From positions 1-45,197 of IMG/VR virus record IMGVR_UViG_3300020580_000027: a stretch of 45,197 bases of DNA, one strand, 5' to 3'. Shown here piece after piece: positions 9,065 through 38,684 of the stretch; position 1 is the stretch's first letter; every line of letters begins with the position of its first letter. The notes under the pieces were generated by a model. It made no database searches. It was not told where the DNA came from and worked only from the letters and a program-made list of their open reading frames with translations. A program made the position numbers and the translations under genes. The DNA is from a virus.

Positions 9065-9256
9065 ATGAAAGGGAAAATCACAGTAAGCGATGCTTCCAGC
9101 TATCGCCCTGGGCAGTTAGTTGCCTTTTACACCAGCAGCGGTAAATTGCGTGGCCCTTTCTATGTTTCCAAGATTCTTTCCGAGACAACCATGCGTATTA
9201 GACTAGATACTTGGTTCTGGCGTCTATTCTTTAGAATTAGGGCATTTTTCAGCTAA
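9065..9256 (+). CDS. Hypothetical beta-barrel-like small protein
   Basis: A 63-residue protein from ATG 9065. It reads KITVSDASSYRPGQLVAFYTSSGKLRGPFYVSKIL and ends aromatic/basic (WFWRLFFRIRAFF). The P-G-Q-L-V pattern recalls small SH3-like or OB beta-barrels. Its last stop base is the A of the TerL ATG. Confidence 0.6.
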   Translation: MKGKITVSDASSYRPGQLVAFYTSSGKLRGPFYVSKILSETTMRIRLDTWFWRLFFRIRAFFS

Positions 9257-10758
9257 TGGGCTATCGCCAAGGAATCCTTGAGCTAAAAGACGCCATCACC
9301 GGCCTGGAAAAACTCCCCAAGTCCAAACGCTTTGTAACTTCCTCTTTCTTCGGCTCCGCCTACGTTGGCGGGGAAGGTTCGTCTAAGACGGCCTCTCTCT
9401 GTCTCTCCGCTATCTGTAACGCCATTATTGACCCTGGCGGGAAGTCGCTAATTGGCCGTCTTAATATGCCAGCGCTTGAATCCACGACAATGAACGATTT
9501 CCTGAGCATGGTGCCCGAAGATATGGGCGAGTGGAAAGAGCAGCCAAAAACTTGGACATTCAACAACGGCCATACGGTCATTTTCCGGCACTTGGACATT
9601 ACCGACCCCAAGGTGCAAGGGCACATCAAGTCCGAGAATCTTAGCTGCGTGTACATAGACGAAGCCTCGGAAGTCGATGAAAAGGTGTTTTTGCTGGTGG
9701 TTGGGCGCTTGCGGCGCTCAGGAGCCAAACGGCGTCTCCTGCGTCTTTCTTCCAACCCTGCTGGCCACGATTATATGTGGAAGCACTTTTTCGACCCGCA
9801 GCGCAAGCCGGAATGGAAGCAACTATTCGAGGGCATCAGCTCCTCTTCGATGGATAACGTGTTTTTGCCGGAAGATTACGTGTCCATCCGCAAATCGGTC
9901 TATCCGCCCGACTGGGCCGACCGCTTCATCTATGGGCACTTCTCGGATTTTACCGACCTCGTTTACAAGGAGTTTGGAGAAGAGTCACATGGCTGGGACG
10001 ATTCGCCGGGCCGTGAATGGCAGGTGTTCAACGGGCGCTCGACCCCACCGCTCGACTGGCCTGTGTATGTGGGCATGGACATAGGCGGCGGCGAGGAAGG
10101 CGACCCCTGGGCTATTCCTTTAGCGAGTCTTGCTCCAAACGGCTTTCTCTATCAGTTTGGCGAGATTTACGGGTCGGATTTGCGCATCGCTCCGATTGCC
10201 GAGCAGTACCACATGCTCATGCAAGGTCGGATGCTCGAAGGCATGGCCTACGACTACGCACAGAGAGCCGCAGCCATCGAACTTGAGGATTACAACTTCC
10301 CCGGCCAAGCGGCGGTGAAGGATGTGAAGCCCGGACTATTCAAGTGCGCGCAATATTTCCACATTGATTCCACGCTCAGTCATCCATTTAATCCTGCGAT
10401 TGCCGGAAGTCCGCGCTACTTCATCGCCAAATCATGCGAGAACACTATCCGGGAACTGTCAGGCTACAAATGGGCCAAAGACAGGTCCGGCAACGCCAAA
10501 AACGAGCCAGGGCATGAAAATTCGCACTGCCCTGATGGCATCCGCTATCTGATTCACACCTTCCGCCCATTGCCCAGCGAAATAAAAAAGGTGGAGAAGT
10601 GGGAGAATCCCGCGCTCGACTACGCCAGCAAGATGTTCTGGCTGAGGAAGCACGAAGCAGAGCAAAAAGAGGCTAAGATGAAGCGCACTGGATTTCTTTC
10701 TAGACGTTTGCTCGAAGCTAGAGTAAAACAACAAGGCAGGAGCATACCGCCGCAATGA
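9256..10758 (+). CDS. terL: Terminase large subunit
   Basis: A 500-residue DNA-packaging motor and nuclease. Walker A-like GGEGSSKT lies at residues 38-45, Walker B CVYIDE at 131-136, and the coupling motif SSNPAG at 165-170. The C-terminal RNase H-like nuclease has Asp275 in YVGMDIGGG, Asp333 in MAYDYAQRAA and Asp427 in CPDGIRYLIHTF. The protein binds the portal, hydrolyses ATP to pump DNA and makes the cuts that start and end packaging. Length and domain order are complete for the family. It starts in the TAATG overlap with the preceding gene. Confidence 0.95.
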   Translation: MGYRQGILELKDAITGLEKLPKSKRFVTSSFFGSAYVGGEGSSKTASLCLSAICNAIIDPGGKSLIGRLNMPALESTTMNDFLSMVPEDMGEWKEQPKTWTFNNGHTVIFRHLDITDPKVQGHIKSENLSCVYIDEASEVDEKVFLLVVGRLRRSGAKRRLLRLSSNPAGHDYMWKHFFDPQRKPEWKQLFEGISSSSMDNVFLPEDYVSIRKSVYPPDWADRFIYGHFSDFTDLVYKEFGEESHGWDDSPGREWQVFNGRSTPPLDWPVYVGMDIGGGEEGDPWAIPLASLAPNGFLYQFGEIYGSDLRIAPIAEQYHMLMQGRMLEGMAYDYAQRAAAIELEDYNFPGQAAVKDVKPGLFKCAQYFHIDSTLSHPFNPAIAGSPRYFIAKSCENTIRELSGYKWAKDRSGNAKNEPGHENSHCPDGIRYLIHTFRPLPSEIKKVEKWENPALDYASKMFWLRKHEAEQKEAKMKRTGFLSRRLLEARVKQQGRSIPPQ

Positions 10759-28663: not shown

Positions 28664-29139
28664 TGGCCAACGCGCTCTATCTCGGCAATGCAGGCATGAT
28701 GGGCACACCTAACATCAGTCCTACGCCGGCAGGCCCAAGCCCTGTAAAGCCTGGAGTGGAAGCGCAGCCTTCTGGCATTCCTCCAAATCAGGTACAGCCA
28801 ATAGCGACTAGGGCGTCAGGGCCAAGCGCGGGATATGACCCATCGTACTTGCAGAACTTGGCTTCGTTTATTGGTTCGCTGTTTGCTGGTCCGTCGAGCG
28901 GCAACACGACATCGTTCAACCCATTGGGGAATCTTAGCGAAGTTAGTCCTCCAGGCGGGCAGACAGGGAACGCGGCGGGAGCGGGCGCACCGATGACTTG
29001 GCTGCAACAAGCATTGAGCGGCGGAGGATTCGGATTCACGCCGACGCCAGCGCCAGCAACGGCGGGAAGCGGAGTAGGCGTAGGCAGTGGATTTGGCGGC
29101 GGTGGATTCCCGCGAGGACCGAGGCAGCTAACGCTATGA
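28663..29139 (+). CDS. Pro/Gly-rich protein, possible tail needle or plug
   Basis: A 158-residue low-complexity protein: many Pro, Gly, Ser and Ala, one helical segment (YLQNLASFIGSLFAG, MTWLQQALSGGG) and a Gly-rich end (GVGVGSGFGGGGFPRGP). Such disordered proteins occur among ejection or tail-tip genes. Its stop overlaps the next ATG. Unrecognised. Confidence 0.6.
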   Translation: MANALYLGNAGMMGTPNISPTPAGPSPVKPGVEAQPSGIPPNQVQPIATRASGPSAGYDPSYLQNLASFIGSLFAGPSSGNTTSFNPLGNLSEVSPPGGQTGNAAGAGAPMTWLQQALSGGGFGFTPTPAPATAGSGVGVGSGFGGGGFPRGPRQLTL

Positions 29140-29600
29140 CAGATTTGCTCATCCGTGAAGCCACCGACAAAGACGCTCCGCGAATCGTTGCTTTGGGCAT
29201 GGACTTCCTTGCGCTTGGCCCATACAAGGGACAACTGGAAGAGAATCCTATTCAAGCACTCAAATGTGCGACCGACTTTCTAGCGCTGCCAAACATGAAG
29301 ATTCTTGTAGCCGAAGAGAGTAATGCGGTGTGTGGCGTCTTTGCCATGCTGGTATATCCCCATCCATTTTCAGGCCAACTGACCGCTACGGAACTTATCT
29401 GGTATGTTGAGCCAGAACATCGTGGGCGCGCGAGCATGGAATTACTTTGGGCGGCGGAGCGCATGGCTTATGACATGGGCGCGGTGTGGATGCAGTTGAC
29501 CGCACCAAGCCCTGAAACAAGCAAGGTATATGAGCGGCTGAAATATGCTCCTATTGAGACTTCGCACCAAGCTCGCTTGGAGAATCGAGTGAGGCACTAA
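29136..29600 (+). CDS. GNAT-family N-acetyltransferase
   Basis: A 154-residue protein, ATGA-coupled. GNAT layout: N-terminal strand and helices (LIREATDKDAPRIVAL), beta strands MKILVAE and VCGVFAML, then TELIWYVEPEHRGRASMELLWAAERMAYDMG, with motif A (residues 91-104) supplying the acetyl-CoA pyrophosphate loop R-G-R-A-S. The C-terminus SKVYERLKYAP fits motif B. It transfers acetyl groups from acetyl-CoA to an unknown amine. Its position inside the tail/ejection genes is notable and suggests modification of a virion protein. Confidence 0.85.
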   Translation: MTDLLIREATDKDAPRIVALGMDFLALGPYKGQLEENPIQALKCATDFLALPNMKILVAEESNAVCGVFAMLVYPHPFSGQLTATELIWYVEPEHRGRASMELLWAAERMAYDMGAVWMQLTAPSPETSKVYERLKYAPIETSHQARLENRVRH

Positions 29601-31226: not shown

Positions 31227-32995
31227 TGGCTGATGGCGACCAAATCATAGCTAACGCCGCAGATGGGACTCAGCATATCTTCCCTTCTGGTACGGACGTG
31301 TCCGTGATTGACGCGGCCATGAAACGCTATGTGACGCGGCCCGAAGCACAGCCGGGAGCCTTCCAGCAACGTCCTAGCGGTCCAGTACTAAACGCCAAAG
31401 ACATGGCCATGCCGGATGCCAGCGCTACACCGGGAAGCGTAGCGCGTTCTGGTGCAGGTGGGTTGACTAGCGCCATCATCCCTGAAAACGAGCAAAGCGC
31501 TGATTGGAAGAAGAATCTTTCCACGATAGGCGCTGGACTCAACCAGCAGGTGAACACCGCCGCAACGACGCCGTGGGGCCAGGGCGGGCCTATCTGGGGA
31601 GTCTTGTCGATGCTGGCCAAAAGCATTATGAGTGGGGCGCATGGAGCGGCTAGTGGAGCAGAGGAATTGGGTAGCGGAGCATTGAATCTTGACCCTAACA
31701 AGGCAGCGCATGGGGGCGGAGCGTTCCTAGGCAATCTAGGCACACTTGGCTTGCTAAAGAAAACACCCGAAGCACTCCCATCTGTGAACCTGCCGGAAAA
31801 AGGGTGGACGCCAGAATTAAGCGCAGGCGACCCGCTAGGCAAGGAATCTGTTCAAAATGTGATGAACCAAGGCCCATCCAAAGCCAAATTCATCAGCCGT
31901 CAAGTCGAGCGCGCCAATGCCACGCAATCAGCGGTCAAGTCCACACTCGATGCCGTGCATGAAGATGGCAAACAACTGATGAGCGGCGTAAGCCAGCATG
32001 TAGACTCCGCCGAACCTAACGGAGCATTCAATCGCGCCGATGTCCATGCGGCGGTAAAAGACGCAATGGGCGTAGTGAAGGCTGACCAGAAAGTTCCAGC
32101 AGCGATTACCAAGGTGCTCGATACCTTCAAGCCCGATGATACTGGCGGCTGGATGCAGAAGGGTGGCAAAGCTCCAAAGGGGCCAACGGTAGGCGGCAAG
32201 ACGCTGGACCTCACCAACCCATCGGACAAGGCAGCATTTGAGAAGTACAAGAATGCTGGAGTGTTCACGCCAGAGGAAGCGGCACGTTATGAAGGTGGGG
32301 GCAGCCCGGAAGGGAAGATGTCGTTTGAGGAGCTAAAGCAGATACACTCAGACATTGGCCGGCAGATAGCGAACACCGAAGGCGCAGTAGAGGCTGGCGT
32401 GAAAGCGGCTTACTCCAAATTAGGCGAGATGTTGCGTAACAAAGCGGAGAGCCACGGAATGCTGAACGAGTGGAGTGAAGGGGCCAGCAAGGTAAAAACC
32501 TTCTACGATACGGCGTATCGCTCACCGCTCAAGGATACCTACTTTGGAAGCAACCACGGCAAGATTATGAAGCCGCTGGTTAGCGACGACCTTGGGCCTA
32601 CGGTGTGGAAGCAACTGGAGAAGGTAGCGCCCTACGGCTTGGATATGGACAAGCTCAAGCAGACCGTGGACGGCTACCGCTACGGCAAGAAGATGGACAT
32701 GCTGAATGAGCCTTCGCGGATGACTCCGATTCTCGCGGCTATCAGTCCGAAGATGGCGGCTCTGCGCATCGCTATCCCACGTGGAATGCGTACGGCGGGA
32801 ATGACGGAGTACCTGTACGGCAAGGGCTTGGAGAACGTGCCGGAAGTCCCCACATCGAAGATTTATCCGTCAGCAAAGGCCGCAGCCAAAGCAAGGTCTG
32901 GATGGGAGACTTCGGACGAAGCGGCACGTCGTAGAGCTTCTGGCGTAGACCCATCGCTTAAGTCGGCGCGCCGACACTACGAGAAAAACCGATGA
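31226..32995 (+). CDS. Large internal virion protein
   Basis: A 589-residue protein starting at the A of the previous stop. The N-terminus has the common phage motif DG..H.FP.GT....D.AMKRYV (residues 13-35). Then a Gly/Ala-rich hydrophobic region (GVLSMLAKSIMSGAHGAASGAEELG) and a long charged helical body to the end. It is likely the largest of the ejected set. No lytic transglycosylase motif is visible. Confidence 0.65.
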   Translation: MADGDQIIANAADGTQHIFPSGTDVSVIDAAMKRYVTRPEAQPGAFQQRPSGPVLNAKDMAMPDASATPGSVARSGAGGLTSAIIPENEQSADWKKNLSTIGAGLNQQVNTAATTPWGQGGPIWGVLSMLAKSIMSGAHGAASGAEELGSGALNLDPNKAAHGGGAFLGNLGTLGLLKKTPEALPSVNLPEKGWTPELSAGDPLGKESVQNVMNQGPSKAKFISRQVERANATQSAVKSTLDAVHEDGKQLMSGVSQHVDSAEPNGAFNRADVHAAVKDAMGVVKADQKVPAAITKVLDTFKPDDTGGWMQKGGKAPKGPTVGGKTLDLTNPSDKAAFEKYKNAGVFTPEEAARYEGGGSPEGKMSFEELKQIHSDIGRQIANTEGAVEAGVKAAYSKLGEMLRNKAESHGMLNEWSEGASKVKTFYDTAYRSPLKDTYFGSNHGKIMKPLVSDDLGPTVWKQLEKVAPYGLDMDKLKQTVDGYRYGKKMDMLNEPSRMTPILAAISPKMAALRIAIPRGMRTAGMTEYLYGKGLENVPEVPTSKIYPSAKAAAKARSGWETSDEAARRRASGVDPSLKSARRHYEKNR

Positions 32996-33558
32996 GCATA
33001 TTTATCGTGCCAACGCCGGAAAACGTGATGGAGCGCAAGCAGCGCGTACCTGGCTGGACGGTTATCAAGCTCGACCGCAAGGCCAAGCGCGAATGGCTTA
33101 CGCTCATAGCGCAGCTCAAGGAGAGGGGAGTCGTTCATGTCTATAGCAGCGATTTGGACACTGAGGCGGGACAGTTGCTTGCGAACGAGTTGCGAGTCCC
33201 TCTCAAGCACGAATTTGAACTCCGAAGGTTTAGAATCGGCAGATTCCACGGCATCAAGTTGGCCGACCTCGGAATGCTCATGGAGCGATTGGAAGGAAAA
33301 TGGAAACGAAACCCAGCAATCCCCGTTCGTGAGGGAGATTCCTTAATTAGCTTCCAGCGACGTTTCGCTAGGCGATTCAATACGCTACTAGGCCAAACCG
33401 AGACTATCGCTTTTGTCACAGACCCGTTGACGATTGCCTATATCCGAGGGGGGATGGACGCGCATTCCTTAATCCCCAACGGCAATCCTATTGACCGGAA
33501 AAAGATTTACAAAGTTTCGGCACGCTCAAATGAGCAAGCCGCTCAAGGAGTAGCGTAA
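32992..33558 (+). CDS. Degenerate histidine-phosphatase-fold protein
   Basis: A 188-residue protein resembling the phosphoglycerate mutase/histidine phosphatase fold: HVYSSDLDTEAGQLLANEL (residues 49-67) equals the SSDL helix, RRFRIGRFHGI (79-88) the 'E..G..EG' strand, PVREGDSLISFQRRF (111-125) the 'GES....R' helix, and IAFVTDPLTIAYIRGG (139-154) the 'VVTHG..IR' strand. But the catalytic RHG becomes PTP (residues 7-9) and the second His becomes Asp144; SSDLxR also lacks its Arg. Likely a binding fold without phosphatase activity. Located between ejection and spike genes. Confidence 0.7.
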   Translation: MSIFIVPTPENVMERKQRVPGWTVIKLDRKAKREWLTLIAQLKERGVVHVYSSDLDTEAGQLLANELRVPLKHEFELRRFRIGRFHGIKLADLGMLMERLEGKWKRNPAIPVREGDSLISFQRRFARRFNTLLGQTETIAFVTDPLTIAYIRGGMDAHSLIPNGNPIDRKKIYKVSARSNEQAAQGVA

Positions 33559-34088
33559 TGCCTGGGCCAGCGCGACCGTGGAACAATGTCCCAGACGATC
33601 CTTTCATCCAAGGGGCCACGCGGGATTTCCTTAATTGGCTGCTCACGGTCGCCATACAAATCCAAGGCAACCTGTTTCCGCCTGCTGCGCCACAAGTCAC
33701 GACCATTTCTCAACCTGGGGCGGTGCAAATAATCTTCAATGAAGTGGCCAACGCCAACCACTACGCGGTATTTGAAAGCGGAGTGGCCAGCGCTCCACCT
33801 GGAGTACCACTCGCTACCATATCAGCGAACCACGGAGCTATCAGCAATTCCTATTTGCGTACAGGACTAAATGACACTGTGACTAGGTACTATTTCGTGC
33901 AGGCATTCGATAATTCAGGGAATCGCGGCACTTTGTCTGGCGGTACTCCCGGCGCAGCACTCTCAACCGCAGCAACCATCGTCCCAATATCGCAGACGCC
34001 AGTAAATCAGGGCGGTGTTGGTGGTGGTGTAGGCGGCGGCGGCGCACTTCCCGGCCGTCCAGGGCCAAGGGGAACACAAGTTGCCTAG
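33558..34088 (+). CDS. FnIII-like tail-associated protein
   Basis: A 176-residue protein. After an N-terminal helix (ATRDFLNWLLTVAIQIQGNL), one beta-sandwich domain: QPGAVQIIFNEVANANHYAVFESG, then TRYYFVQAFDNSGNRG, the Y-x-V-x-A-x-D-x-x-G-N-x-G pattern of fibronectin type III. A Gly-rich tail (GGVGGGVGGGGALPG) ends it, overlapping the spike gene start by eight bases. Possibly the linker or adaptor for the spike encoded next. Confidence 0.72.
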   Translation: MPGPARPWNNVPDDPFIQGATRDFLNWLLTVAIQIQGNLFPPAAPQVTTISQPGAVQIIFNEVANANHYAVFESGVASAPPGVPLATISANHGAISNSYLRTGLNDTVTRYYFVQAFDNSGNRGTLSGGTPGAALSTAATIVPISQTPVNQGGVGGGVGGGGALPGRPGPRGTQVA

Positions 34089-37551: not shown

Positions 37552-38029
37552 GCTCTACATCCTCTCAGAACTGGTGGCCACGATGGGCATAGAGGCGGCA
37601 GCATTGACCTGGCCAGATTACAACAGTCGGGAATATGCTGCCGCTTACTGTGTCTGTAGGGCTATCGACCTCTCTGCGGCTATCTGGCTGTCTAGGCCAC
37701 GCGCAGGGACGACTATTAGCGCCCTTTTGCTGACCGCCATAGCGATAATCGGCCTCGGTGGGCATTTGGACCTCAACTCAGGGATTGCACTCGCCCAGGG
37801 GCTTGGTTTTGCCTTGGCGGGCATGAGCATAATCCTCCAGCCTATCTCGCTGCCAAACACAGTACTAGCCGTACTCTGGCTCATGCTTGCAGCATTTTTC
37901 TATGGCTATGGCATGGGCTGGCACCTGCAAATCTGGCAAAATCTTGCCGACTACTGGAACACGATTTGCGTTATAGTGGCGTTCGGTATTCTAGCGATAG
38001 TGGGAGCGAAAGATGCCGAGACTGCTTGA
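37472..38029 (+). CDS. Multi-pass membrane protein
   Basis: A 185-residue protein; GTG 37463 is a possible earlier start, ATG 37490 a later one. About five to six hydrophobic segments: YLMGATIAVLLVALLRV, ILSELVATMGIEAAAL, AISALLLTAIAIIGLGG-type, GLGFALAGMSIILQPISL, VLAVLWLMLAAFFYGYG and ICVIVAFGILAIVG. No transporter motif seen. Located in the lysis region but larger than usual holins; a membrane-remodelling role is possible. Overlaps the previous gene by 80 bases. Confidence 0.65.
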   Translation: MPLDYLMGATIAVLLVALLRVQEPKLKLYILSELVATMGIEAAALTWPDYNSREYAAAYCVCRAIDLSAAIWLSRPRAGTTISALLLTAIAIIGLGGHLDLNSGIALAQGLGFALAGMSIILQPISLPNTVLAVLWLMLAAFFYGYGMGWHLQIWQNLADYWNTICVIVAFGILAIVGAKDAETA

Positions 38030-38684
38030 TCTGTTTTGCGGGCGCTGGGGCTGGTCACGCGCTTTTGCGGCGCGAGGGTGGCGCTGTACTGGCGTGGATT
38101 TGACGGAGCCGTCCGAGATTCCAGTTAACTGCGCTTTCATCAAGCGAGACGTTCTCGACATTGGCGAAGCAGTGCAAGACCCTATCTGGCTAGGCTGCTT
38201 CGACTTCATCGTCGCATCTTCGCCATGCGAAGAATTCTCCATCCACATGATGAAGCACTTCCACAAAAACCCGAAGTACCCAGAGCACGGAATCAAGCTA
38301 TTCAACCACACACGCGAGATTCTGGAAGCCAGTGGCGTTCCGTATGTCATGGAAAATGTGCGCGCGGCGCAACTCTTCGTCGGCAACGCGGTGCATCATT
38401 GCGGCCCATATTTCCTGTGGGGATCAGGTGTCCCACCGCTTGTGCCGAAGGGAAGGGAACTGAAGAAGGGGCTTACCTCGACCGCCAAAGAATACTACGA
38501 AGCCGCGCAACGTGGCCAAGCTGCCATCAACGAATTGCGGAAACGCTACCCGCACAGCTACTCAGGAAAAGGCTCGAAGATGCGAACGGAGCTTACAGCG
38601 AAAGCGGCTACCATCCCACCACTTCTCGCCAACTGTGTAGCCGACTACGCCGAGCGATTGCTGGAGCAACGAGCGTGCGCCTAG
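38013..38684 (+). CDS. DNA (cytosine-5) methyltransferase-like protein
   Basis: A 223-residue protein. Motif I LLDLFCGRWGWSRAF (residues 4-18) binds S-adenosylmethionine; motif IV ASSPCEEFS has the Pro-Cys pair with catalytic Cys72; motif VI is ENV (114-116). ATIPPLLANCVADYAERL near the end equals motif X. The target-recognition region is short compared with usual C5 enzymes of 300-400 residues, as in other compact phage methylases. It likely methylates phage DNA against host restriction. Overlaps the previous gene by 17 bases and interrupts the lysis genes. Confidence 0.82.
   Translation: MPRLLDLFCGRWGWSRAFAARGWRCTGVDLTEPSEIPVNCAFIKRDVLDIGEAVQDPIWLGCFDFIVASSPCEEFSIHMMKHFHKNPKYPEHGIKLFNHTREILEASGVPYVMENVRAAQLFVGNAVHHCGPYFLWGSGVPPLVPKGRELKKGLTSTAKEYYEAAQRGQAAINELRKRYPHSYSGKGSKMRTELTAKAATIPPLLANCVADYAERLLEQRACA

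Follow-up and report, generated by a model that had tools for sequence, protein, structure and literature searches.

A phage late-gene protein with a predicted histidine phosphatase fold and no catalytic residues is probably a binding pseudoenzyme

A 188-aa protein encoded in the 45-kb linear virus record IMGVR_UViG_3300020580_000027, which was analysed over its full stretch of 45,197 nucleotides (the window), is probably a phosphatase-dead binding pseudoenzyme on the branch-1 histidine phosphatase fold, made with the late proteins of a group of uncultured tailed phages. We favour this reading because the fold is combined with loss of the catalytic residues in 12 of 12 family members, and because the family is under selection, invariant residues lie in the pocket loops and the gene occupies a fixed late-gene slot. 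According to this proposal, the branch-1 fold would have lost the phosphotransfer chemistry of the superfamily and would show no phosphatase activity; the mouth of the former pocket, re-lined by Arg79, His86, Asp54 and the GDS loop, would bind a ligand or a partner peptide, and the likeliest partner would be encoded by one of the coupled neighbour genes or else be a host molecule encountered in late infection. Few pseudoenzymes of this superfamily have been shown to play a new role, and the literature searched gave one, of animal origin. A phage family that is probably phosphatase-dead throughout, with a fixed slot and absent as a unit in a sister clade, offers a clean system for following an enzyme fold after its chemistry is gone.

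The protein is predicted to adopt a branch-1 histidine phosphatase fold

A histidine phosphatase fold had been proposed for this ORF by the first-pass annotation, and Pfam, a profile search of the PDB, AF2 with Foldseek, and VIA all bore this out. PF00300 (His_Phos_1) was the single Pfam family found on the protein, covering residues 14-151 with 38.3 bits and an E value of 1.4e-9; the gathering score being 21.7 bits, the fold call is not a chance match. Using phmmer against the PDB, the window protein matched the CobC-like phosphatase 3hjg (E 0.0023), and a profile of the 12 family members retrieved PhoE, PspA and CobC-like chains, while a PHROGs search with the window protein gave no match. 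The AF2 model built on the 12-row alignment reached a pLDDT of 87.1 and a pTM of 0.83; pLDDT fell below 50 in the final ten residues only. An earlier AF2 model from three sequences was weak (pLDDT 59) and was replaced; phosphatases were already matched by it. The top PDB matches of the final model in Foldseek were all phosphoglycerate mutases and histidine phosphatases, with E values down to 7e-10, and among viral models the top matches were enzymes of these two kinds from large phages and giant viruses. Structural comparison by VIA gave Z 16.6 to 9mmh (rmsd 3.1, 175 aligned), 16.3 to PhoE 1ebb and 16.3 to 4ij6. Structure prediction and structural comparison thus returned the histidine phosphatase fold, and the Foldseek and VIA matches ruled out a different one. 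By sequence and by predicted fold, the protein is assigned to branch 1 of the histidine phosphatase superfamily.

The branch-1 enzymes compared were PhoE (1h2e/1ebb), PspA (4ij5), the alpha-ribazole phosphatase CobC (3hjg, 6nru) and the riboflavin HFP (9mmh). The phage protein resembles them in its fold over residues 1-180 (VIA Z 15-16.6), in its PF00300 score above the cut-off, in the SDL, LR, GxS and VT...IR landmarks, and in R18 and GW; it differs from them in that the catalytic positions are replaced, the SxxxxR region carries a two-residue gap, the Glu has become the invariant Arg79, and the identity is only 13-20%. Since Pfam scores such phage genes well above its cut-off, caution is needed with their automatic annotation as histidine phosphatases.

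Relatives are confined to related uncultured phages

The family comprises 12 distinct members including the window copy, all from related uncultured phages, and PF00300 matches all 12 with E values of 0.001 or lower. Relatives were reached first through the terminase and an 846-aa late protein, after which whole matched records were searched with the window protein, its profile and PF00300. The window terminase (9256-10758) led to nine loci at 69-100%, and the terminase used as an alignment led to about 40 contigs at 51% or more; many of the matched records end before the slot, and absence of the gene there carries no meaning. Identity of the other members to the window protein ranges from 26 to 75%, with L015 at 75% and L016 at 46%. 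The whole-record search further yielded L097, L098, L099, L100, L101, L102 and L104, and scanning with the family profile brought in L118 and L115, the latter together with the near-identical L116. No relative was found by a pattern scan of IMG/VR viral contigs or by tblastn against phage isolate records, each with the window protein; neither the pseudophosphatase family nor the terminase was found in bacterial genome contigs by pattern-based scans, which distant relatives could escape. One record, G017 (IMGVR_UViG_3300020579_000009, 78747 bases), has both the terminase and the pseudophosphatase twice, in versions of different subgroups; this points either to a chimera assembled from two phages or to a tandem insertion.

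Every catalytic position is replaced in all 12 members

The 2H signature of the superfamily consists of two His and two Arg (PGAM5 paper, PMC5501728). In the window protein, V6-P7-T8-P9 stands in place of V-R-H-G, S52-S53-D54-L55 is present with the 'xR' that should follow it deleted, and V142-T143-D144...I151-R152 replaces VSHG...IR. The alignment thus confirmed three statements made from the letters alone, namely that RHG is PTP, that the second His is Asp144 and that the SSDL Arg is missing. At the RHG columns, the family has PTP, CTP, AAP, ATP, PNV, PIP or LPA, with Arg or His in none of the 12 members, and the nucleophile H9 of PspA (mutated to Ala in 4ij6) aligns with window residue 8. 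The second-His column holds Asp in 9 of 12 members and Pro, Glu and Ala in one each, and never His. Judged against both the intact phage enzyme L103 and the PDB chains, a two-residue gap takes out the SxxxxR arginine, and D56 is followed by T, K, S, R (in one member), E or G. Branch-1 phosphatases also use an acid Glu; all 12 members have Arg79 in place of the catalytic Glu of 'LREIxxG', a loss absent from the first-pass annotation, whose 'GES' landmark also needs correction, as it is actually G115-D116-S117 (GDS), invariant throughout the family. Every catalytic position is therefore replaced in all 12 members. The features are listed in Table 1.

Table 1. Coordinates in the window of the pseudophosphatase gene, its altered positions and its neighbours.
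Feature	Position	Strand	Basis
Upstream neighbour, 589 aa	31226..32995	+	Kept in place; no Pfam over cut-off, no PHROG family
Pseudo-histidine-phosphatase gene, 188 aa	32992..33558	+	ORF (ATG at 32992, stop 33556-33558); PF00300; AF2 model; VIA Z 16.6 to 9mmh
Codons 7-9, Pro-Thr-Pro, RHG position	33010..33018	+	Alignment to PhoE and PspA; Arg/His 0/12
Codons 54-57, DLDT, two-residue gap, SxxxxR arginine gone	33151..33162	+	Comparison with intact L103 and PDB chains
Codon 79, Arg, catalytic Glu position	33226..33228	+	Arg in 12/12
Codon 86, His, invariant and specific to the family, in the loop of codon 79	33247..33249	+	12-member alignment
Codons 115-117, GDS, equivalent of GES loop, invariant	33334..33342	+	12-member alignment
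Codon 144, Asp, second-His column	33421..33423	+	Asp 9/12, His 0/12
Downstream neighbour, 176 aa, glycine-rich tail	33558..34088	+	Kept in place; start overlaps pseudophosphatase stop

The loss is old and the product is maintained

In all tested pairs pN was 0.12-0.39 against a pS of 0.60-0.86, pS being mostly saturated, and the sole unsaturated pair gave a dN/dS of 0.11. The losses are common to members as distant as about 26-32% identity to the window protein. Because 12 of 12 members lack the catalytic residues down to that identity and pN lies far below pS, the loss is old and conserved rather than recent, and the sequences indicate that the product is maintained by purifying selection. 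Supportively, in the alignment with phage relatives the substitutions were conserved and no close relative had an intact RHG; a recent loss was ruled out, all 12 members being without the catalytic residues. That the gene is the decaying remnant of a phosphatase gene would agree with the disappearance of all catalytic residues, but is hardly credible given 12 full-length ORFs without stops, the low pN and the invariant new residues; gene decay was ruled out by pN/pS together with the conservation across the 12 members.

Invariant residues gather in the former active-site loops

Sixteen residues are invariant in the family (R18, L42, D54, L55, P70, R78, R79, F80, H86, W104, P108, G115, D116, S117, S120 and R124), among which R79 and H86 are family-specific. 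The pocket-framing loops, which make up 50 of 178 positions, contain 10 of the 16 (hypergeometric p 0.003), a rough test in which the loops were picked from the topology after the alignment had been seen. The invariant residues of these loops could be structural, and several (R18, R78, G115, S117 and R124) are common in active enzymes too. Alternatively, a new catalytic site could be made up of the invariant Arg79, His86 and Asp54. A re-invented enzyme, in which different chemistry would be carried out through the invariant Arg79, His86, Asp54 or Asp116, with Asp144 in most members, in place of the two His and two Arg, would explain why the invariants specific to the family lie in the loops of the old active site and why polar conservation there exceeds what a scaffold alone needs. 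We nevertheless regard it as rather improbable, since the former His position offers no invariant nucleophile (T, A, N, I or P), Asp144 is not universal and, to our knowledge, no histidine phosphatase has such a residue set. The broader idea that the histidine phosphatase scaffold has gained a new active or ligand site from the invariant Arg79, His86, Asp54 and GDS loop is likewise unlikely in our estimate; if true, this late-made phage protein would have a chemistry or ligand without precedent in the superfamily. Of the initial suggestion that the fold was reused for binding or has a different chemistry, the premise, loss of the known chemistry, is well supported, as the catalytic residues are gone in 12 of 12 members, and the fold may serve either binding or a new chemistry.

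Comparison with another pseudoenzyme and with an intact phage phosphatase

A pseudoenzyme of the acid-phosphatase branch in animal saliva has lost both catalytic His, is without phosphatase activity and reuses the fold for ligand binding (PMC10728186). The phage family has likewise lost both catalytic His; however, the salivary protein belongs to a mixed clade with active relatives and reflects a recent loss, whereas the phage family is uniformly without catalytic residues. A literature search for phage histidine phosphatase pseudoenzymes yielded nothing relevant.

An intact phage phosphatase, L103 of record G046, matches PHROG 12933 and the family model (E 3e-6), and has a relative, L129, at 28%; the G046 terminase stands at 27%. 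L103 and the pseudophosphatases have the same domain and common NPD...xGxS...R features, but L103 keeps RHGQT, an SxxxxR-type region (GDLTRTQQT) and LVTHS, which the pseudophosphatases lack, and it adjoins MazG-like and metallophosphoesterase-like ORFs (identified by eye), unlike the late-gene setting of the pseudophosphatases. Intact relatives came only from distant phages; they are compatible with descent from an active ancestor but are not proof of it.

The gene occupies a fixed but accessory slot among late genes

The start codon of the pseudophosphatase runs into the stop of the 589-aa gene (ATGA) and its stop into the start of the 176-aa gene (TAATG); these overlapping codons suggest translational coupling. 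All members occupy the same slot, between a large gene and a small gene with a glycine-rich tail, often with stop/start overlaps; in L099 an extra 140-aa ORF overlaps the end of the pseudophosphatase and then follows it. Genes for the terminase (phrog_2, E 6e-34) and the major head protein (phrog_14242, E 5e-30) are found further upstream, also on the plus strand, in keeping with the 'virion operon' of the first-pass annotation; the immediate neighbours match no known family, however, and to this extent the placement is one we infer. The 589-aa neighbour is possibly an internal or ejection protein.

Four related phages (G025, G031, G032 and G036) have no phosphatase, and their downstream gene lies within a longer ORF directly after a large ORF, which the upstream-gene profile matched weakly or not at all and which is identified mainly by position. 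In the terminase tree they form one clade (98/100), and presence of the gene is clustered. Since this sister clade lacks the gene at the same place, the gene is accessory, yet it is inherited with the phage lineage. Some exchange of the gene is indicated as well, because the window copy is closest to the G006 copy while the window terminase is closer to that of G009. In G031, a 172-aa HNH/NUMOD-like ORF (L134, 974-1492; read by eye) sits in the pseudophosphatase slot.

The slot bears on two further readings. A purely structural or assembly part, that is, a virion decoration, adaptor or chaperone for the coupled neighbours with no pocket function, is consistent with the fixed position between two late genes, the overlapping start and stop codons and the absence of the gene as a unit in the sister clade. 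We consider it unlikely, because the clade without the gene keeps the downstream gene, in the longer ORF, after the large upstream ORF, so that the gene is not needed for assembly in general, and because conservation favours the pocket loops. Phages are known to make a class of sponge proteins for nucleotide signals (PMC11722364). This precedent, together with the accessory presence or absence in a conserved slot, occupied in one relative by an HNH-like gene, would suit a counter-defence or signal sponge, with the re-lined pocket taking up a phosphorylated host metabolite or a nucleotide signal. Such a function is very unlikely here: the part removed is exactly the positively charged phosphate pocket (two Arg and two His), the PADLOC models, which cover mainly defence proteins, gave no match at E <= 1, and the gene lies among late genes, where anti-defence genes are less expected. 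The preferred reading remains a binding pseudoenzyme.

Two other ORFs of the window were noted. In the same late-gene run, 28998-29600 (+) encodes a GNAT-type acetyltransferase (phrog_1249, E 1.7e-20; PF00583 just over the cut-off), whose true start is probably inside the listed ORF. The ORF at 38013-38684 (+) opens with MPRLLDLFCGRWGWSRAFAARGWRC, which by eye resembles the start of a DNA methyltransferase.
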